Shown: positions 1-12,310 of the stretch, piece by piece
How positions within the stretch are numbered: position 1 is the stretch's first letter
Layout of the letters: every line of letters starts with the position of its first letter
NCBI GenBank assembly: GCA_022592445.1
Contig: JABYQR010000023.1
Span: 124,001-188,000, forward strand
Direction of reading: 5' to 3'
Source: Cytidiella melzeri
Taxonomy: Eukaryota; Basidiomycota; Agaricomycetes; Polyporales; Irpicaceae
DNA length: 64,000 nt
The notes under the pieces: model-generated
The model's database searches: none
What the model was told of the DNA's origin: nothing
Seen by the model: the letters and a program-made list of their open reading frames with translations, nothing else
Translations under genes and position numbers: made by a program

Positions 1-884
1 TGTTATAGATAAGAACGGATCGTTCATGTTAGAAGCGGTCAACATTCTACATGATGACGAGGGTTGGTTGGCAGAGAGGCCTGTTGACGTGGAGGCGGAT
101 AGCGGGTCGTCAAGAAATGGGGGAATGATCCCAAGCTCTGCGTATAGGTAGTCTATCTGTACCATGATAGTTGATAGATAATGCAGCCGTTTTCCCTATT
201 TACCATGACAGTCAGCTTTAATTTTTTTGTGCCTCACGAGGACGCTAGACCACTCACAATCTCGCTCTTTCCACGAACAAGTTCTTTCTCCAACTTCGAG
301 AAGCGTTCGGGTGTAACGTCTCGGTGCGCATCTGGCTCGATTTCATCTTCACCTGCTGCTATAAGGGGTTCAAGGTCTCGTGGAGGATAGAAGTCAGGGC
401 CCAGGGTACGAGATAGTGCAGCAATGCGGTTCGTCAAGGTAAGAAGCTGTTCGAGCTTGGTGTGGTATAGCTGTGACAGTACCCTGTCAGTTACTTCAGC
501 CGTCCGACACCAAGACTCACGTACCTGTCTCAGCTTCTCCTGGTACTCCGTAATCATGTCGAACCTCCTCGGCAACACTTGCTCCTTTCTGATTTCGCCA
601 ACGCTGCTCCCCGTAGCCTTTACGTGATTGCCTAGAGCTCGCCCATATCTAATACAGCAGTTCTCCACCTCCTCACATCGACCCATCCACTCATCGACCT
701 GCTCCTTTCGCGCGCCAACTTGTTTCTCCACACATTCTGTGAGTTGTTGCTGTAGTGTTGATAGGTCGTCGGCAAGGGCGGTTGGAGGAAGCCCAAGTTG
801 ATTGTGCAATGTCGGCAGTAGTTGAGTTTGGGATTGAAGGTGAGACTGCAAGGAGTTCAACAAAGACGTGATTGTGGTTGACAT
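1..884 (-). CDS. ase1: Anaphase spindle elongation protein Ase1/PRC1/MAP65 family, N-terminal part (runs off window)
   Basis: Ase1/PRC1/MAP65 proteins cross-link antiparallel microtubules at the spindle midzone in late mitosis. Exon 1 runs from 884 down to 258. It encodes a helical, Gln/Glu/Leu-rich segment with the family-like stretch LGPDFYPPRDLEPLI and then a segment ending KLEKELVRGKSEI. A 62-nt intron (196-257, GTGAGT donor, AAATAG acceptor) joins it in phase to exon 2, which opens with KRLHYLSTIMVQIDYLYAEL, the conserved MAP65 segment. I chose ATG 884 because the conserved protein begins there; the frame is open further upstream to 1145 but that part looks noncoding. Exon 2 stays open to position 1, though another intron near 45-60 is possible. 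The dimerisation-helix region is covered, but the microtubule-binding spectrin domain lies outside the window. Confidence 0.8.
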
Positions 885-1227
885 CGAAATGTTCGTCTTA
901 GGGACATGCGAATTGAATGGAAGGACGTCTGCACAGTAGGAATGCTCGTGGCCAGAGCATGAGGCCGGAGACCTGAGGTCGCGACGCGGTTGGGAAACGC
1001 GATCACGTGCAGAGTCTGCCTGATGTATTTTAGACGCGCTTGACACGCCTGAGGCTAGGAATACACGTGGTAACACCTTTAAAAAAACCTTGAAAAAGGC
1101 ACTGAAAAAGCGCGCGTGCTTGCTTACATTTTCTCCCTTGCACATGGGTATGCTTTCATGTGATCATTTCTATACTGTGTAGAGCAAATAGTCACCCATC
1201 ACATTGGCACTGTCCCCACCGCTGAGT
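885..1227. other. Promoter-side spacer between ase1 and the Plavaka element
   Basis: This 343-bp stretch lies upstream of the ase1 start codon and ends at the left terminus of the mobile element. It contains an A-run near 1078-1090 and no coding signal I trust. The ase1 promoter must lie here or inside the transposon end, so the insertion may have displaced upstream control elements. Confidence 0.5.
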
Positions 1228-1470
1228 CACTGTGTCGGAGAACTTGAAACTGCCTCTAAAGGCGCTTGCCTCCCGTCGGCCTCTAGATGCCGACTGGATG
1301 ACGGCCAGAGAGCGGCATCAGCCTCCAGATGGCAGCGAGAGAGATGGTATCAATCTCTAGATGCGTAATCAGACATGTCATCTAAATCTAGAGGCACCGG
1401 AGCGTTCTCCGTAGAACGCGGCATTCTCAATATGGTATCCAGAGGTTTGACACCTTCTCTAGAGGCCATC
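1228..1470 (+). repeat. Left terminal inverted repeat and subterminal CTAGA(G/T)G motif cluster
   Basis: The first 30 bases pair imperfectly with the reverse complement of 10521-10550. From about 1270 to 1470 the motif CTCTAGATG / TCTAGAGGC and one-base variants recur at least five times in both orientations. Subterminal arrays of this kind are transposase-binding sites in CACTA elements; that role is inferred here. Confidence 0.6.
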
Positions 1471-1567
1471 GTGAGTACGTATCTGTGTACTGATAGCTGA
1501 GATAATAATGATTCAGCACGTTCAGCGCTCAGCCTGCGACGTGATGAGCTTTTTCTCCCCCCTACTG

Positions 1568-2350
1568 TCATGGATGGCCTGACTAGCCCTTAATTTTCGC
1601 AATTTACCTCTTGTTTTTATCTGTAAAACTCCGGGCTACAACCTAGTTTCAATTCTCTCTGCATAAACTCCTTTGCACGTCTATTAAGCGCCCGTATCAC
1701 GTGGCTTAGACGCTCCACACGGTCACATTACTTGCTACTACGTCACACTGGCATGTGACTTAGCTTAAGTAAGACCACATGGCTACAACCACATGGCTCA
1801 GCCCATAGCTAGGGTTTGACGTCATAGATACCGTCCACATGGGCTCCTTATTGTTCTTTCCCTATTGTTCTCTTTATGGAAGGATGTTCTCACAGGTGTG
1901 GGAATGGAATACAATAGTTGGTCTCCTTTTAGATAGATTCTCTCACGAGTAGAGTTCTTGGCAAGGTCTAGACAATAGCTATTGTTCTCCTTTAGGTAGT
2001 TCTTTTGTTCTTCGTTCACACGGCTTCTTGCAAAGCCTGCCCTTAACATGGTCTGTGCGCAGGTCCCTGAAGTCTATATAAGCAGCTACATGTACGCTCC
2101 TAGCCCTCATCTCGACCTCTTGGTCTTTACTGGGCTAGGTAAGCAACACCCCTCTTGTACTACATAGCGAGTAGTATCAATGCTAACTTGGTCTTTACTG
2201 GGCTAGACAACTTGTATAAAGTCTGATAGCTGGTGAGAGCACTGTGCTACACGCCTGCCACCACCTCCTCGTCGATATCCACTTCGTGTCCCTATCTGTC
2301 ACGTCGAGCCTTGTCTCCGTGTCACCTACCACCACACTCTTTGACTTGAC
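1568..2350 (+). repeat. Diverged LTR-like sequence inside the Plavaka 5' region
   Basis: This stretch begins TGTCA and carries a TATATAAG box near 2077 followed by two copies of TTGGTCTTTACTGGGCTAG about 70 bp apart. The same layout (TATATAAA, then CTCCTGGTCTTTA, CTTGTACTAG and TGGTCTTTAG) occurs in the gypsy LTR at 19906-20393. I infer an old solo LTR inserted upstream of the transposase gene. No second copy, clean end or target duplication is visible, so the call is weak; it could instead be the element's own promoter region. Confidence 0.3.
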
Positions 2351-2412
2351 CCCCTTCTCTCACCACTACGCGTAAGTTGGACACTCCATCGTCTTGCAAG
2401 TTGCCTAACAAC

Positions 2413-5400
2413 ATGCTCAGATCGATTCAGATGTCTTCTTCCTTGCGAGCTCAAAAAAAGGATTCACACGGACTTGGACGTTATCAATGCAACGAGTCCA
2501 AAGAGTGCCCCAATTGTGGGAGGGTGTGCGCTGTCAGGGGTTTCCAGTCTCACTTCAAAGCTTGCGAAGAACAGCGCACGTACGCGGAAGCTGTCGCCAA
2601 CCGCAAACGTGCAGCAGCCTCTGACTTGCACCACACTCCCAAGCGAGGTATGAGGGAATCACAACATTGCTCACTCATTTGCATCATTCGTCTTTCCCCC
2701 AGGTCGACACATGAGGCAAGCAGACCCTGGACCCAGCTCAAACCGTATGAGCCCCATATCAGATCCTGGTGCACTCTCACAAACGTACGGTATTGAATTG
2801 ACACCATCTGACATACTCAAACAGGTACGCTGCAGATATCGCAAACAGCCAATCCATTTGGGCTGGAGATTCTGCCCGAAGCAGTCATGGAGGAACTTAT
2901 CATGGGCTCCGCTGCAACGGAAATCCAGGGCGTGGTGGACAATCTGACTCCTGCTGGAGGTGAGCCCTATTGACAACGCCACGCTCAGGCTGATAAGACG
3001 CCTGGCCAGGACCGGACTCCCATCAATGGGAAGGAGATGAAGATGAAGAAGCAGATTTTGATAAGAACGCACCTGATGCAGTACCCCAAGTACTGGAACC
3101 AGAAGTCGAGAATCCCTCTGATAATCACAATTTTATGCCAGGAGAAGGTGGGAAGATCTTATATGTTGTGTCGTACCCTAATAACCATGCTGACAAATCT
3201 TTCGCACTACGTCTTCTTGCGCCACCAAAGACCCTTCCGCTCATAGTGCAGCCATCAATGACGCGCAGATCGACAACATCAAGGTCGAGTACCACAAGTC
3301 CTCCCGCCGTCCGACTCATATCTATTCCTTCGAGAATTTCAAAAGGAATGAACGCACGGTTGACCTTGATTTGTTGACACCCGAGCCGTGGAAGCCATTC
3401 AAGACCCGCTTGGACTTCGAGGTCGCCGAAGTAATCCATGAGGCCAAACTCAACAGCAAACTCACGGATCGTCTACTCAAGGCTGTTCACAAGATCCTTC
3501 AGAAGCCGTGCGACTTCACTCTCGACTCCTCTGCCGATCTGAATCGTTATTGGCAGAGCGCAAAGATGTACTATCCCTCAGTAAGCACAACTTGTTCATT
3601 AACTCGAAACATGCATTCACATCCTCTAGTTCACTGCGGAAGAAATTACTATTCCGTACAAAGGTCAGCTCAAGACATTCGAGTTTCACTCACGGCCGCT
3701 TTGGGATTGGATCCTCTCACAGGTTCGAGATCCTTTACTCGCGCCCCACTTCAAGTGGGATGCGCAGCGTCTATCAAAGTTCGACGGCACAAAATGGGTT
3801 CGCTTCTACGACGAGCCATGGACCGCAAGCAAATTTGCGGAGGTTCAGGTGCGTGGCATTATGTGTGACTGGCTGAGCCCAATTTGAGCTGTAGAGACAG
3901 TCCCACATCTCATCTGTTCGCCCTGATGGCAAACCTCTCGCAATTATCCTATGGGCCGACACCAGTGTGCTGTCCACATTTGGAACCCAGAAGGGCCATT
4001 ACATTGTTGCTCGCATCGGTAATCTGCCACAGTCGATCCGAAATGGTAATTCTGTGGGTGGAGGGCGTGTTGTGGGGTTTGTTCCTATTGTAAGTGCTCA
4101 TATCTTGCGAGAACAACAGATACTACTTTTTTTCCAGGTCGGGGCGAATGCTGCAGAGCAGGGGAAACCCTCGTTTGTCAACTGGAAGAACGCAGTTTTC
4201 CACGAGGCGTTTCGCGCTTTCCTCAAAATCGTTGCACGCCTGTCAAAGGTGGGCCAAGTTGTGCACTGTGGCAATCGCATCTCGCGCGTACTGTTCCCGT
4301 ACATTCATATTCTCTCTGCCGACTACGAGGAACAGTAACGTATCAAATGTATCCCTGTTGTAATATTGACAAGTTGATTGTACTCTTCCTTGGTATAGAT
4401 GTTGCTTCGCACTAATCAGAGGGCTTGGCGGAAATGCCCCTTGCCCAGTTTGTCTCGTCCCAAAAGGAACACTGTCAGATTTAAGAACTGAGTACGCTTA
4501 TCGGGTGGCCGCGGAGGTGCAGGAGCTTGTCCACAAAGTGGAGTCCAAAAAAGCCAAGGAGGCCGCGCTAAAACCCTTGGGTCTGCGCGCCGTTAAGGTA
4601 GGTCAGGGCTATAATCGCATATCACGGGGCGCAACGCTAATTTTCTGGCACAGAACGCGCTATGGGACGTGGAGAATTCCGATGTTCACGAAGCAACGTC
4701 TTTTGACCGCCTCCACGCTTACATTATAGGATTGTTTCAGAAACATCTCCTTCCAGAGATCAAGATGTTGCTAGAAGACATGGGCAGATGGGCAGAAACT
4801 ACGTTTGATGAAGGGTACGTCGATATACCTGTGTGACACATCTACTCAAGATGCACCCAACCACCGTCTAGATTCCAGAACATGGAACACTGGCCGAATT
4901 TGAGCCATTTCACACACGGACTGTTCAAAATGGATTTTAGCGATGGAAAAAAATGGGAGCATGCATTTAAGGTACGCAATTGACTTGGATATCGTCTCAG
5001 CTTGTCTCAGAGTGATTGTGATTGTATACTAGATCCTTCTCCACGTCGCGTACCATATATTCAATCAGGAGCGTAGCCTCAAAGGTTTTGCCTTGCTCAG
5101 GCTTTTTCGGAGTTGGCAAGAACTGAACACATACCTGACGTTTGAGGTTCAGACGTCAGTCACCATCTCAGCGTTCGAACGGACACTTCTTTGTTTCCAT
5201 GATCGACTGGCGGTAAGTTGATTACATTGCATTGTGAACGAGCAGCAGACTAAACAAGAACGAGGCTTACAACCAGCATTGCGAAGGGATGCAGAGTCAG
5301 ACTGGATGGAGTCATCAAGATCCATTCTCACCTTCATGCCGCTGTGATATCCGACGGAAAGGTGTTATTGCTAACATGGATACAAAGGTGAATGAGAAAA

Positions 5401-6364
5401 TGAACCGGCCAATGCGAGAGACATATCATAGACAAACAACTTCAAGAACGTGGAGCCACAGGTACGATTGTACTCACATACAAAGCCTACTTCTCACAGC
5501 AAATCCTTGTTCATCAGCTGGGCAAGTTTGACGATCGAGATCAAGCAGCGGTCTCAATTCGTGCACATCTTGATGCTTTGGATAAGCAAGAAAACCTTGT
5601 CCATACGGGTCTGCCAAAGGAGCCAAAGTCTATTGAATGGCAGTTCGCACAGGTCTACCTTGGATCACGCCAGAAACCCACTGACTTCAAGGGCTTTGCT
5701 GCTCAAGCAGCGCTCGACGACGCTTTCATCAGGTTCCGCCAGAAGCTGACCGATTGCCTTACAGACCTTATACCTCGGGAAAACCCACGAGGAAACCAGC
5801 TTCTGCTGAATCGTTGAGCTCGCAACACACCGACCATTCACAACTCTGATAAGGCGAGTTTCATTGTCAAAAATGTACAGAACATTATATCTGATGCTGC
5901 TGACATGAGGTCACCGAATGCGAGTATTTGAAGGTAGACTACGAGTCTACAGTCTCCTGGCGGACGGCCACGGATCGTCTATACTGCAGGCCAAGTCGCC
6001 CAGGCCGTACAGAATGATGTGACTGCGTCATGGTACAGATGTTGGCAAATGATGTCACGTTCGCCAGACTGGTTCGACTTTTTGTCTATTTCTCTGAAGG
6101 TAATAGGTATGCTCTGGCTCTGGTTCACCCCTTCACAGCGGACAGAGCAGCACGGGACGGCGACACAGAGCTCGGACTATGTCGAATACGCGTGCAGCCC
6201 CGTCGAAGCTCACTGATCATCCCAGTGTGATCCATAATTCGTGGCGTTCTCGTGGTTGCAGATAACAAGAACGATGAAGAATACACCATCATGGACACTC
6301 TCGACCAAGACATCTTCTTACGGTTGATGCCTCTGTTCCCTAACAGAGATATGGAGATCATCTG
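2413..6364 (+). pseudogene. Plavaka-type transposase, multi-exon, disabled by in-frame stops
   Basis: The reading frame hops across many short introns. It starts with a cysteine/histidine finger near 2500 (CPNCGRVCAVRGFQSHFKAC) and an acidic linker. The body then matches the Plavaka group of fungal transposases: PWKPFKTRLDFEVAEV near 3390, SRPLWDWILSQVRDP, TASKFAEVQ, VGGGRVVGFVPI, HILSADYEEQ, CPVCLVPKGTLSDL, NALWDVENSDVHEATSFDRL, then ILLHVAYHIFNQERSL. The C-terminal part (LKVDYESTVSWRTATDRL and SIIRGVLVVADNKNDEEYTI) remains recognisable to the natural end at 6364. In-frame TGA codons occur at 5815, 6015 and 6228, and there are probable frame slips near 3220 and 5440, so it cannot make a full-length protein. 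ATG 2413 or 2431 are equally possible starts. Family identity rests on remembered motif patterns; I am confident of Plavaka-like, less so of subgroup. Confidence 0.7.
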
Positions 6365-7456
6365 ATCAACGTCTCAGTAAGCCCATACGTTATAGCCTCC
6401 TCGTCTTGATCTCCAAGGTATCTCGTACTTGCCAACAGCGTACCACAAATCATGGACATGCACGCCATCTCTTGTTCGCTCGACCACCCAGGCCCTGGTG
6501 CTTCACATTCCAAAACCTGCTGACAACGGTACACATGCACTACGCTCAACTCTTCGACTCCTCCCCCTCTGTCTTGATTGCCTCAGCAATATCTCAATAC
6601 CGCGGATACCTCCCCCATGCAACGTGTGTCAAGTCCCGCTGTCCGTTGAGTCAAGCCGTCAAATCCCTGCTCCGACTCGTCTACGACAGACAAATACAAC
6701 CCGCTTGTCAACAAACCACTCATACACCATACTGTGCGCAATGTCCAGCTTCCTTCTCCCATTTCTCCTGCAACACGACCTTCTCCTATCTCGACATCTC
6801 CGATCACGCTTACCGCTCAAATTGCGGCAACCTTAGACTGTTGTGTCTACCAAGTGGTACCCCTCCGAGAGTTCGTCCTTCGACGTTTGCGCACATCTAC
6901 AAGTGTCCTGCAGACTGCTTCGTGCTTGTACCACTCGCTACATCAACGCCATTAAAACACGCTTTGCCACCTCTGCTGTCTCTCCCATCGCTTCTATCTC
7001 CCCTCCGCTGCCCTTGTCACACATTCCCGCCTGTCACATCTTGGCCTCAAAGTTCTTGCCAGATTGTCGACTCTAACAAAGCATAGGGAAACTTTGCTTC
7101 CTCCTCCTCGTGAAAAATATCACGACGGCCAAAGCTCACCGCATCGTTTGGGTCCTTCAACAGGTTACGTGCATTTTAGTCTTCGTTGTGCATTATCTGA
7201 CATAACTTTACCCGTGTTAGTGCACGAGTTGGGTTGTCAGTACGTCTACAATACCGTGCACGCTGCTTATCGCCACTCACCCCCAGCAGTAAGTGACGTT
7301 ATCGAGGTCACGTACAGAGAAAATTCTAACCTCGTGTTATTGTTATTCTCACACGCTCTGATGCATGTGTAGCCAGCATGGACGGCAATATCCACGGTGC
7401 GGAACACGCGCTGCACTAGTTTTGATGTAAGCTATTTTCCTCCGTGCTTCAAGCAG
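6365..7456. other. Spacer between the transposase pseudogene and the second Plavaka gene
   Basis: The stretch is pyrimidine-rich on the plus strand and contains an open frame (6406-7086) rich in Ser, Pro, Leu and Thr. That composition is what C/T-rich DNA gives by chance. I see no conserved domain, intron pattern or repeat. It most likely holds the transposase 3' region and the promoter of the next gene. Confidence 0.4.
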
Positions 7457-7463
7457 TATAAAA
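7457..7463 (+). promoter_or_regulatory. TATA box of the second Plavaka gene
   Basis: TATAAAA lies 70 bp (7457-7463) upstream of the first in-frame ATG at 7533, within a typical fungal core-promoter distance, and is followed by a pyrimidine-rich leader. Confidence 0.5.
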
Positions 7464-7532
7464 GAGTGAGAACTCACGCCAACGTCACTCAGCACTGTAG
7501 CTCACACAGCCCCTCTCTCTTTGTCTCGTCTC

Positions 7533-9687
7533 ATGTCGCAAGCCCTCAGTTACCTCACTGTACCCACCAACAATGCTTTCGACTATGATGAACTGACAGA
7601 TCCCGACGAGGAACGCTTCGATGACGCACTCAATCCAACAATCACACAATTAAGCTCGATGGATCTCAGTGCTCGTGGACGCGATGGTCGCCACAGCTCT
7701 GCAAGTTCGCGTGGAGGACGCAGTAGAAATGTGACACCTGCCGCCGTGAACGCGAATATTGCACAGGTGAGTTATACAGCAGCATGTCAATACGTTGCAC
7801 GAACTTTCACTGACGTCTTAACTCAGGAGTTGTATCAGGTTCAGAACGAATATGCTGATCTCAGGACTCGTTATGAGCAAAGCGAGCAAGAGAGACAGGC
7901 TTTGTCAGACAGACTGCAGCAAGCCACGCGACGTGGAAAGAAAAAACCGTCAATGGAAGAGCAGTCTGGCAATTCGAGTCTCATGCAGCAGGAGCGAAAG
8001 GTTTCGGAGTGCGGAAAGAAATACGCACTCCTCCATCGGCCCTGGGCGAGCAAGGAGAACTGTGCAAAACTGAGCGAGGAGCGTCCTCTTGTCAATCTCG
8101 ACGACACTAAACGACGCTTCCGGGATATGCGGACACAGGAGGACGCGCACCTTGCCGAGATGTGGGATATTTTGGCGGCCGACCCCATTGTCAAACCGCT
8201 TTTGGGGAATGCGTTGTGGCTGCACAAAAAGGTTTGCGTTTGTTTATTCCATCTACAGCAACTGATTCAGTATCTAGTTTCGCGAAATGGTTCATGACGA
8301 GAAATCAAAATTCGTGCACACTGCCAACACAAACATCGTAGAGATCTTCGGCTCTCTTGGGATTGATAGGGAGTCTCTCGGGACCCCGGGAGCTCGGAAA
8401 AACTGCGCTGCTCTGCAAGCTCTAGGCCCTAAAGGTCCCAATGACTACTATTGCGACGTTCTATATCCCGAAGGCCACGAGAGGGAGATCAACTGGCTGT
8501 TTAGGACTAGAAGGATTGTCGTCGTATGTCAATCTTCATTATTATAATACTCCACAGATATTACATGTTGCATTGCTAACGTACTATTCTACCAGGTTAT
8601 ACAGAGTGGTATCCTCGGCCAGGGATCTCCAAGGGGGGCTCAAGCTACCAACACGCTTTCAAAGGCACACCAATGGGGCATCAAAGAGGTGACGCCTGGC
8701 CTGATCGCATTTGCAGCGGTTGTTGTGAGTACCATAACCGCGCGGTCGCTTTTGTGTACTGAGGAGACCATGGTCTAGCTCGTTTACCTCATCTCTGGTG
8801 ACAACACTTTCTCGCCGAAAAACTCCACCTTGAAAGTAACCTATGACTATCCGCTCTTTTTCTACCGCTTCGTCTGGCTTATGATCACAAAGCGCGATAC
8901 TCCAGGCACTCAGGAGTTATTCCAATGGATGAACCACCAGGTATTTGGGACAGAGAGGTCAGGGATGTCAGCCGATTCAGGGGACGAAGCATTGGATGGC
9001 GATATCGAGGCGCTCAATAATGAGATAGAAGCCATGTTCGGCTTAGCAGGTACTGATCCTATCGCTCGAAGCTCTTCGCCGCAATTGGTCGCTGCTCCTC
9101 GTCCACCCGCTCGAGGTAGCTCAACTCAATCCTTGGCCGCTGCTGTTCGTCCTTCCTCTCGATCCCCTTCTCCAATGCATGATGCCCCTCGTGCTGCTCC
9201 CTCTCGAGCTCCTTCTTTGACACACACTCTGTCTCGTTTGGCCCCTTCTCAAGCTCCTCCGACGGCACGCAGCGCCTCTCGTCCTGCTTCCAACCGGTCA
9301 TCTTCCGGTACGCTGTATCCCCCTCATGCTGCCACCTCTCGAGCTCGCCCTCTCGCGTCCCTCACCGATCATTCCCGAGCGGCCTCTCCCACCTGGCCTG
9401 TCCATGAGGCTGAGTACACACCAATCTCTCGAGGCCCGTCACCTGCTGCCAACGACGCTCCGTTGGTTCTTCCTAGCCTTTTTGTACAGCCGCAAGGTGT
9501 AGGTGCCGGTATACAGTTGTCATCGGCCAATGCTCGCATGTCTGCTGGTATCGAGTCGCAAGATCAGTCACTACCGCCGGCCGCGCCTGCACCCAAACCA
9601 AAGCGCAGCAAGAAAAACGCTGCCACTGTTGGGACGGAACAGCAGCAACCCATTGCAGGTGGACGGGTGTTGCGCAATAGGTCTTGA
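7533..9687 (+). CDS. Uncharacterised 640-residue Agaricomycete protein carried inside the Plavaka element
   Basis: Five exons join cleanly with GT-AG introns, each in phase 0: 7533-7766, 7827-8231, 8278-8523, 8596-8724 and 8779-9687. This gives 640 residues with no stop or frameshift. Exon 2 encodes a coiled-coil-like stretch (ELYQVQNEYADLRTRYEQSE onward) ending in a basic patch RRGKKK. The middle is a probably helical domain with the pattern WGIKEVTPGLIAFAAVV, then LISGDNTFSPKNSTLKVTY and LFQWMNHQVFG. Uncharacterised mushroom proteins, as I remember them, share this pattern; I know no function. The last ~220 residues are Ser/Ala/Pro/Arg-rich and disordered, ending with a likely nuclear localisation signal (KPKRSKK). 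Same strand as the transposase and inside the same inverted repeats, it may be a transposition accessory or a captured host gene. Confidence 0.65.
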
Positions 9688-9879
9688 TAGACAGCGAGCG
9701 TCGAGAGTCGTACCGTAAAATATTCTGTCCATGATGTGTTATGCAATATACTCTTCGCTTTTGAGTCTCAACCGTTATACACGTCGTTTCGCTGCGTTTA
9801 TAATGAGAGGAGCATAGACAGTAGTCAGTACCGGAAGTATAGCAGGTAACAAAAGCTGGTTTATATTTTATACCGATTA

Positions 9880-10200
9880 TGCAGTATATACGGTCTTATA
9901 GTGCAGCGGTTTTAATCGCTGAGTTGGCGCTTATACTACTTCACCTGCGCGGTAAGGGTTCGAATCCGACTCAGTGCAGTAATAAACAATCTTGTACTGT
10001 AGTAATAAATAGTGTATTGGGATTATAAACCTACATTCAATTAAGAGTAATAAGCCAGTAGTGGTCGATAAGAATTTGTATACAACATTGTAAGTGAGTA
10101 AGTAAACATATACATTCAATTGAGAGTAATAAGCAAGTCCACAATAACGACCCGTATAAGACACTGTAATTGAGTAAGTAAAAATCAATGTAATGAAGTA
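9880..10200 (+). mobile_element. tRNA-derived SINE-like insertion
   Basis: A perfect RNA polymerase III A-box consensus (TAGTGCAGCGG, near 9899) and B-box (GGTTCGAATCC, near 9957) occur at tRNA spacing on the plus strand. The sequence does not fold as a tRNA, because the T-stem and acceptor stem do not pair. It is followed by an A/T-rich tail with a duplicated ~77-bp unit. That is how tRNA-derived SINEs look: a degraded tRNA head and a repetitive tail. It lies within the right part of the Plavaka element. Exact ends are not visible. Confidence 0.45.
10030..10190. repeat. Two-copy ~77-bp A/T-rich tandem repeat
   Basis: Two adjacent units share TACATTCAATTGAGAGTAATA at their start and GTGAGTAAGTAAA at their end, with a divergent centre. 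A third partial run of GTAAGTAAAA follows. This is probably the tail of the SINE-like insertion. Confidence 0.55.
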
Positions 10201-10289
10201 ACGAATCAGTAAGTAAAAAACAATATCGCAGACGGAATCAAGTAAGGATGGGTAAGAAAGTCCAGCTAATAGCTACATTTGCCACGAGG

Positions 10290-10550
10290 CATCAAGATGG
10301 TCTCTAGAGACCAATAGACATCCGCATGGCCATCTAGATGTGCTCAGCTTGAAGTTGCGCGCTCTAGAGGCGAATAAGCTGCCTAGATGAAGAGGGTGTA
10401 ATCTAGAGGATATCATATCATCCAGATGAATTGATAATCTCTATATGATTACTGTCAGCTCTGGAGGCCGTCCAGAGGTGCTCCGCGCCTATCACTGCAT
10501 CTAGCCGTCTAGATGAGTCTAGAGGTGCTTTCAAAATGTCTGACATGGTG
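10290..10550 (-). repeat. Right subterminal CTAGA(G/T)G cluster and terminal inverted repeat
   Basis: At least eight copies of CTAGAGG, CTAGATG or close variants occur in both orientations between 10300 and 10526, mirroring the left end. The final 30 bases (10521-10550) are the imperfect inverted partner of 1228-1257. Confidence 0.6.
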
Positions 10551-11289: not shown

Positions 11290-12147
11290 CTACCAACCTG
11301 AGTCATCCGAGTCATCCATTTCATTGACAACATTCGTGAGATCCATCGTGGTGGTACTGGCGGTCTCTTTGACAACGACAGCCGCGGTGGTTGCCTGCTC
11401 ATCGAATTTCTCCTTGCAGTTGAGCTGATAATGCCCCTTCTTTCCGCATTTGTAGCAGGTGATGTGTGACAGATTCGACGAACTACCCTGTGCGCGCTTG
11501 GCCCGTGCCTGCAAAATGTACGAAGCGGTCTCCATAGACGGCTTCTCCTCCAAGTTGTGAGTCTCTTTTTCCTCCTGAGTGTGCTCGGCGTGTGATTCCT
11601 CGTTCAACAGCTGCGTGATAACGTCGTCGAGAGTGAGAGCGTTGGATGGAGTCGAGTCAAGAGCGACAACAAACATGTGGTAGGATTGGGGAAGGCCCAT
11701 GGTGAGGACCAAGATCAACTCCTTGTCATCAACAGTGACACCAATACCGCGAAGACAAAACGCAACACCACGTACGTCTGCAATCCACTGAGCCATTGGC
11801 TTATCGTCCTTTTTCTTCATCGTCAGGAAAGTCCGGCGCACAGCCAAACAGGTAGCCAGTCCGCGAGCGCGGTGCACCCTCTGCAACTCCTCCCAAACCT
11901 CTGACACAACCGTGCTCGTCATATGAGCCAGCTGATCCACCTCAACATGGAGAATCATCTCCGCCCTCGCCTCCGCATTCTTCCTTGTCCAGGCCCTACC
12001 CGCAACCAAGTTTGGACCTGTCAACGGCATGGGCGTATCCCCAACACCAACTTCCTTGATTCCCTTCTGGGTCATCAGCGCCTCCATAAGTACGCACCAC
12101 ACTTCATAGTTCTTGTTGTTCAGCTTGAGAACGTCTGACTCTCCCAT
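11290..12147 (-). CDS. Gag polyprotein of the gag-only copia-like element
   Basis: A 285-residue structural protein, complete from ATG 12147 to its stop at 11290. The N-terminal half has the copia gag layout: LNNKNYEVWCVLMEALM near the start, helical repeats, then FLTMKKKDDKPMAQWIADVR and LTMGLPQSYHMFVVAL. A CCHC zinc knuckle (CYKCGKKGHYQLNC, residues ~233-246) should bind RNA. The tail is acidic. No frameshift or stop is present, so the protein could still be made. It should assemble virus-like particles; any packaging of its own RNA by other elements' enzymes is inferred. Confidence 0.85.
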   Translation of the reverse strand: MGESDVLKLNNKNYEVWCVLMEALMTQKGIKEVGVGDTPMPLTGPNLVAGRAWTRKNAEARAEMILHVEVDQLAHMTSTVVSEVWEELQRVHRARGLATCLAVRRTFLTMKKKDDKPMAQWIADVRGVAFCLRGIGVTVDDKELILVLTMGLPQSYHMFVVALDSTPSNALTLDDVITQLLNEESHAEHTQEEKETHNLEEKPSMETASYILQARAKRAQGSSSNLSHITCYKCGKKGHYQLNCKEKFDEQATTAAVVVKETASTTTMDLTNVVNEMDDSDDSGW

Positions 12148-12149
12148 AG

Positions 12150-12310
12150 TGACAACAGCAACAGCGACAACAACAACAACGGCAATCCGGCTTCGGCCCC
12201 GGGATAGGCAGCAACAACGACAACAACAACGGCAACAACAACGACAACAAACGACGGGCGAGTTTGGCCTCGCTAAGGCAATTGACAGGCAAATTCGGCC
12301 TCGCTAAGGC
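12150..12310. repeat. CAA/CGA-rich trinucleotide tract with a short direct duplication
   Basis: Imperfect CAA, CAG and CGA triplets run from about 12152 to 12262 in the leader of the gag gene. They are followed by two copies of CGGCCTCGCTAAGGCA-like sequence around 12266 and 12296. It is low-complexity leader sequence; open frames across it are artefacts of the triplet repeat. Confidence 0.6.

Follow-up and report, generated by a model that had tools for sequence, protein, structure and literature searches.

In mushroom-forming fungi, Plavaka elements can account for much of the DNA transposon content; for Marasmius oreades, the part of PMC8290104 available to us gives DNA elements as 6% of the genome, with KDZ or Plavaka making up about half of them. 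In the available part of Kojima 2025 (PMC12730594), PlavakaA elements are described as having 5'-TGT..ACA-3' termini and 2-bp target-site duplications, all Plavaka families that bear TET/JBP belong to PlavakaB, and Nuwa elements of the Harbinger group encode a second protein with Myb/SANT. In plant CACTA elements, as described in the available part of PMC2613891, TNPA binds subterminal repeat clusters and is needed alongside TNPD, and proteins of the TNPA type vary between elements. We analysed a 64,000-nucleotide stretch of DNA from the wood-rotting fungus Cytidiella melzeri (the window; C146:124001-188000, where C146, C342 and similar copy names are contigs of the 49.7-Mb assembly) that contains a DNA transposon with a broken Plavaka transposase gene and an intact second gene encoding a DUF6698 protein. 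On balance, we favour the reading that this element is a recently inactivated two-gene PlavakaA transposon in which the DUF6698 protein is a TNPA-like partner of the transposase.

Comparison with copies at other sites fixed the limits of the element and its ends as follows.

1233..10545, + strand: PlavakaA-type DNA transposon, 9,313 bp; homology with copies at other sites begins and ends here.
1231..1232: left target-site duplication, TG, 2 bp.
10546..10547: right target-site duplication, TG, 2 bp.
1233..1262, + strand: left terminal inverted repeat, TGTCGGAGAACTTGAAACTGCCTCT..., with 20 of 30 bases matching the right end.
10516..10545, - strand: right terminal inverted repeat, paired with the left end.
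1233..1522: left subterminal region, in which CTAGA(G/T)G occurs 5 times.
10256..10545: subterminal region of the right end, where CTAGA(G/T)G was counted 8 times (over 10257-10546).

The length of 9,313 bp counts a 764-bp insertion, consisting of a long terminal repeat (LTR) and one copy of the LTR target duplication. Sequence common to copies at other sites runs only from window position 1233 (TGTCGGAGAACTTGAAA) and only up to 10545 (TTTCAAAATGTCTGACA); in copies with different flanks, the left-end match stops at one and the same base, TGTCGGAGAACTTG, and the right-end match stops at CTGACA. An earlier note, made from the letters of this DNA, had placed the element at 1228..10550 with ends starting CAC. 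Both the span and the ends had to be revised, since CAC is flank and the copies fix the termini at TGTCGG (1233) and CTGACA (10545). The agreement of 21 of 30 bases counted between the ends in that note was correct as a count and wrong in placement: the first five columns, including three of the matches, are flank. We observed 2-bp target-site duplications in all six independent insertions for which both flanks were read (TG for C146, TT for C342, TG for C386, TA for C155, TA for C279 and CA for C618), an outcome with a chance probability of ~6e-8 if equal base frequencies are assumed. The element on C30 at 54406 (C30b) was left out of this count because its adjoining bases are the same as those of C618. 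The left-terminus pattern TGTCGGARAACTYRAA had 39 matches in the genome at no more than one mismatch, versus 7 for a control pattern, and 17 of the 19 exact matches were at listed related transposases, the exceptions being on C561 and C664.

The clusters of CTAGA(G/T)G that the earlier note had described at both ends are present, with 5 copies in the first 290 bp and 8 in the last 290 bp, versus 1 in the intervening 8,734 bp; 4 more lie elsewhere in the window. For a looser form of the motif, the counts are 7 at the left end and 11 at the right end, versus means of 0.5 and 0.7 and a maximum of 5 in 2,000 shuffles per end. CTAGA is also found at the ends of other subfamilies, at 4 to 11 copies per 290 bp in 12 of 13 non-window ends, counted without a shuffle control. 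The left end of C618, which has zero copies, carries a deletion that extends close to the terminus.

The first gene of the element is a Plavaka transposase gene that is broken in the window.

2413..6365, + strand: Plavaka transposase gene, broken, with three in-frame TGA codons and four small coding gaps; its counterpart is a 15-exon gene that is open in C342.
3895..4338, + strand: open stretch with a match to the Plavaka domain PF18759 (46.8 bits versus a cut-off of 26.3).

We spliced the C342 gene by hand, which gave an open frame of 15 exons and 1,064 residues with GT-AG borders at all introns, two of the 14 being merely 35 bp long. The resulting protein matches PF18759 at residues 300-616 with 129.6 bits (cut-off 26.3), in agreement with the assignment of the window gene as Plavaka-like. 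Comparison with this open sister confirmed that three substitutions in the window copy create in-frame TGA codons, as had been noted before, and additionally revealed the four gaps in the coding sequence. The annotated window transposase (BC835DRAFT_1304172, 884 residues) aligns only to residue 893 of the C342 protein. A Cys/His cluster can be seen close to the N-terminus of the C342 transposase, and CPVC is visible in its sequence, which was inspected for the CMCT-clade pattern of C(2)C plus H(3-4)H between the second D and the last E. The C342 protein had no match to Transposase_21 (tnp2) at an E value of 0.1, and the KDZ domain PF18758 was absent from its Pfam matches at the same threshold.

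The second gene lies downstream of the transposase gene and is undamaged.

7533..9687, + strand: second gene, 640 residues, DUF6698 (PF20414), with exons 7533-7766, 7827-8231, 8278-8523, 8596-8724 and 8779-9687.

Its frame is open across all five exons, as the earlier note had stated, and an identical protein (P0001, 100% identity) is annotated in C. melzeri. The annotated second gene of C401 has the same five-exon layout, and that of C279 has six exons. The protein matches PF20414 at residues 254-394 with 48.0 bits, versus a cut-off of 23.7. It has no other Pfam match above cut-off, and hence no recognised catalytic domain, and no Myb/SANT match at an E value of 1. A predicted structure based on 8 sequences had a mean predicted local distance difference test score (pLDDT) of 35.2, with 44 of 640 residues at 50 or above; nearly all of these are at ~73-115, and a helix at ~69-114 is the sole confident part of the model. 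Residues 131-430 are mostly predicted helix at low confidence, the tail is Ser/Pro/Arg-rich, and a basic C-terminal tail is conserved across subfamilies in an alignment of six proteins. Two sequence searches returned no DUF6698 protein from other species and only C. melzeri proteins (6 and 8), each search having scored only the 7,995 candidates that share most words; we suspect that low-complexity words may have displaced others. We found no mention of the term DUF6698, and no publication on the C. melzeri genome, in the literature searched.

We then determined how the two genes are distributed in the genome. Relatives of the second protein were found at 24 or more places after exon matches had been grouped by hand, and at 18 of the 24 places listed they are preceded, on the same strand, by a related transposase (C146, C342, C155, C386, C401, C315, two on C30, C279, C113, C267, C302, C623, C114, C137, C332, C272 and C618). 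The six second-gene places without a related transposase are three on C112 and one each on C459, C585 and C176; the C112 and C459 genes had no match before residues 177 and 185 in ~1 kb of upstream sequence, little besides the last exon was found on C585, and the C176 gene is fragmented. Counted from the transposase side, 18 of 23 places (21 plus C618 and C30b) have the second gene. The transposases on C522 and C101 run off contig ends, and less than 1 kb of contig remains at that on C621. Both termini enclose both genes at 11 of the places listed (C146, C342, C155, C386, C279, C113, C114, C623, C332, C618 and C30b), two of which have common flanks. Two expectations of the earlier note were therefore borne out, with these 11 places as a minimum: that a Plavaka element carries the second gene within shared inverted ends, and that the paired termini recur elsewhere in the genome. 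The association extends across subfamilies whose exon matches fall to ~46% identity and lower, and it keeps the same orientation. The DUF6698 gene appears to be the regular second gene of this transposon lineage.

These counts were drawn from the best 43 of 220 candidates scored in the transposase protein search and the best 69 of 89 in the second-protein search. We also ran family searches for Plavaka (best 123 of 207 candidates scored) and DUF6698 (46 of 46 scored), which missed the window's own transposase and second gene, respectively, because such genes match exon by exon. The counts are therefore lower bounds, and absences near other DUF6698 places carry little weight.

The second genes on C112 lie in units at 32-36 kb, 43-47 kb and 54-56 kb, ~11 kb apart, and a similar unit is found at C459:10-13 kb. 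In all of these, the second gene has no start and no transposase was detected; a matching right terminus is listed for the C459 unit and for two of the three C112 units.

We estimated omega, the ratio of nonsynonymous to synonymous change, for both genes between subfamilies. For the second gene, omega was 0.29 (C342 versus C401) and 0.32 (C342 versus C279), with values of 0.16 and 0.22 for residues 131-430 and of 0.59 and 0.48 for the tail; for the transposase, omega was 0.21 and 0.18 (C342 versus the annotated proteins of C272 and C137). These are rough values, as synonymous divergence (dS) was 1.0-1.8 overall and saturated in one segment. The distances of the two proteins were correlated across 11 elements (r = 0.93, Mantel P = 0.0002), based on the first 330 transposase residues and the first 430 second-protein residues, with gaps in coverage. 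Judged by these comparisons, both genes are under purifying selection between subfamilies and diverge in step; they have thus stayed together as the subfamilies moved and diverged.

We next compared four young copies (C146, which is the window copy, C342, C155 and C386), which lie between different flanking sequences. All four combinations of gene states were observed: both genes are open in C342; the transposase is broken and the second gene open in C146; the transposase is open as far as read and the second gene has a stop at residue 538 in C155; and both are broken in C386, with a second-gene stop at residue 276. The C155 and C386 transposases were compared over only 1,420 of 3,195 coding bases, in which C155 has no stop and C386 has three; gap runs at the starts of their 3' pieces were treated as alignment edges and excluded. 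Private changes in the second gene of the window were 9 nonsynonymous, 2 synonymous and 0 stop, versus 7.2, 3.3 and 0.49 expected under neutrality with the same mutation types, and zero stops have a probability of 0.61 under this expectation. Pooled over C146, C155 and C386, the private second-gene changes were 29 nonsynonymous, 12 synonymous and 2 stop, versus 28.0, 13.0 and 2.1 expected; the second gene of C342 has no private change. Substitutions between window and C342 number 34 in the 3,195 transposase bases and 20 in the 1,923 second-gene bases, an equal density. Neither the three transposase stops versus none in the second gene (Fisher P = 0.29) nor the location of all four coding gaps in the transposase (P = 0.15) sets the genes apart. 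Among private window changes, polarised by at least two other copies, 34 of 40 are C:G to T:A, and 26 of these 34 are in CpG context, versus a background of 24%. CpG C-to-T decay is a mark of methylated DNA, so the window copy was probably methylated. With private changes neutral in appearance and mostly of the CpG C-to-T kind, it seems a matter of chance which of its two genes a copy loses first. We read the window element as a recently inactivated copy.

Pairwise omega among the young copies was 0.78, 0.61 and 0.87 for three pairs of second genes and 0.96 for the transposase (window versus C342), and was 0.62 for another close transposase pair, C272 versus C137; values below 1 are expected in close pairs if the pairs include time before the last jump. 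Omega of both genes, which the earlier note had proposed as a check, was low between subfamilies (~0.3 for the second gene and ~0.2 for the transposase), as under purifying selection, and nearer 1 between the young copies (0.61-0.87 and 0.96).

In the account that we favour, the DUF6698 protein would bind the CTAGA(G/T)G-type subterminal repeats in the nucleus as a coiled-coil multimer, and would join the two element ends for the Plavaka transposase or regulate its access to them; the transposase would cut at TGT/ACA. Like plant TNPA, the DUF6698 protein probably works on the subterminal repeats, both binding and requirement being inferred, and it fits the place of TNPA by virtue of the helix at ~69-114, the conserved core and the conserved basic tail. 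Intact second genes may supply the protein in trans; we saw no sign that the window copy is kept for that purpose. The earlier note had reasoned otherwise: passenger genes should decay alike, so an intact frame beside a broken transposase would suggest that selection maintains this copy's second protein, to the benefit either of other copies, in trans, or of the host. The lack of second-gene indels, versus four gaps in the transposase, points the same way. However, the nonsynonymous private changes are not below the neutral number, substitution density is equal in the two genes, two of the four young copies have a second-gene stop, C155 is opposite in pattern as far as read, and the four young copies lie between different flanks. 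Selection keeping the window's second gene intact was thus not supported by the per-copy mutation counts, and we regard this explanation as very unlikely; in a single young copy, finding one gene dead and its neighbour intact is no evidence of selection. A recent capture of a host gene as a passenger is more improbable still. DUF6698 matches do exist away from listed Plavaka matches (both lists being incomplete), but the association holds across subfamilies in the same orientation and at exon identities down to ~46% and lower, omega between subfamilies is low, the two proteins diverge in step, and C401 shares the five-exon layout, the six annotated exons of C279 notwithstanding.

Two other functions for the second protein were considered alongside that of a transposase partner. 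It could be an anti-silencing factor that, on recognising the element's own repeats, relieves the element of DNA methylation or of its consequences. The CpG C-to-T decay of the window copy, and hence its probable methylation, would fit such a factor, as would TET/JBP in some families of the sister lineage PlavakaB (available part of PMC12730594); short repeated motifs at both ends suit either role. On the other hand, the protein has no recognised catalytic domain, DUF6698 being its sole Pfam match above cut-off, and the motifs are at the ends, where a transposase partner is expected. We consider an anti-silencing factor, the chief alternative, unlikely, while giving it clearly more credence than the selection and capture explanations above. 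The second protein could also be structural or regulatory in another way, for example as a repressor of transposition, given that plant TNPA is described as a positive and negative regulator alike (available part of PMC2613891); we hold this to be about as improbable as selection on the window copy.

Several observations weigh against a TNPA-like partner that is regular in this lineage. The second gene was undetected at the transposases on C233 (where the length of the contig is not known) and C723, and at two more divergent transposases, on C246 and C124. DUF6698 matches were found at 17 further places without a listed Plavaka match within 15 kb (C1, C401:186 kb, C74, C5, C568, C300, C728, C28, C557, C579, C141, C216, C153, C11, C365, C158 and C549), suggesting that the DUF6698 family may not be exclusive to the Plavaka element. 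This last point is weakened by the failure of both family searches to list even the window's own pair. Several of the 17 are probably repeated families, given their near-equal scores and match ends. Neither KDZ (99 of 99 candidates scored) nor Transposase_21 (21 of 21) was found within 7.5 kb of any of them; the nearest transposase of another family is a KDZ match on C401, ~7.7 kb off. Linkage was examined in one genome, that of C. melzeri, and the omega values between subfamilies are rough, as described above. DNA binding by DUF6698 is a prediction, the evidence examined being gene position, selection and the repeats; the structure model, with its mean pLDDT of 35.2, is poor, and a profile search of structures at an E value of 0.1 returned no solved relative.

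A further sequence is nested in the element, between its left end and the transposase gene.

1566..2324: nested sequence read as a solo LTR, 759 bp, with CCTAC at 1561-1565 and 2325-2329; absent from C342.

It has TG..CA ends and a five-base duplication, CCTAC, and ends 88 bp before the transposase start codon. Among the best 40 of 1,447 candidates scored, bases 1566-2319 match at least 39 other places over 753-754 of 754 bases, some pairs being ~7 kb apart, and we read the sequence as a solo LTR. LTR relatives also lie between second-gene pieces at C618:9051-9804, C30:57642-58395 (in C30b) and C315:8532-9284. The elements on C618 and C30:52000-61999 share a left-end deletion into the transposase, the position of the nested LTR and the adjoining bases, and are probably one insertion present twice in the assembly, although their upstream flanks agree at no more than 1,549 of 2,406 positions in an ungapped comparison. 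Outside the element, a Copia-type gag open frame (window 11293-12303, - strand; PF14223, 89.8 bits) adjoins it, and an open frame at 237-1163 (- strand) has an ATG17-like match that is weak, at 20.8 bits under a cut-off of 43; a few hundred bases separate the element from what looks like the 5' end of this frame.

By termini, duplication length and transposase domain, the element fits the description of PlavakaA in the available part of PMC12730594: it shares the Plavaka transposase (PF18759), TGT..ACA termini (TGTCGG..CTGACA here) and 2-bp duplications. It differs in that the DUF6698 gene is regular here, whereas that part of the paper describes no second gene for PlavakaA; we found no DUF family in its text, in which the sole match was an author name in the references. 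PlavakaB elements with TET/JBP have a related transposase family and, in some members, an extra gene, but their ends are CATCA..TGATG and the extra gene encodes a dioxygenase, not DUF6698. As far as the Plavaka literature available to us goes, it describes the transposase and, in some PlavakaB, TET/JBP only, and the conserved second gene is an addition to it. This gene offers a functional lead for an entire Pfam family of unknown function, and a requirement for excision and the reading of subterminal repeats thereby become testable. More speculatively, and with no greater confidence than we give to an anti-silencing factor, DUF6698 might be the terminus-recognising second protein of PlavakaA, a TNPA equivalent of separate origin that also counters methylation of the element as TET/JBP may in PlavakaB. 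Nuwa elements, as described in the same part of that paper, resemble the element in their two-gene design, pairing a transposase with a DNA-binding protein; they differ in transposase superfamily and in Myb/SANT, for which the second protein here has no match at the threshold given above. The CACTA label that the earlier note had attached to the element does not hold: the ends are TGTC and not CACTA or CAC..GTG, the duplications are 2 bp and not 3, and the C342 transposase matches Plavaka and not Transposase_21. Membership of CACTA/EnSpm was rejected on these grounds, the subterminal clusters at both ends being the one diagnostic feature shared. The second product here is also a separate downstream gene of another family. 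What En/Spm and Tam1, as covered in the available literature, have in common with the element is a pair of products and, at either end, clusters of subterminal repeats that vary from element to element, and a two-gene, CACTA-like element with a TNPA-like second product is, by this analogy, the best reading.

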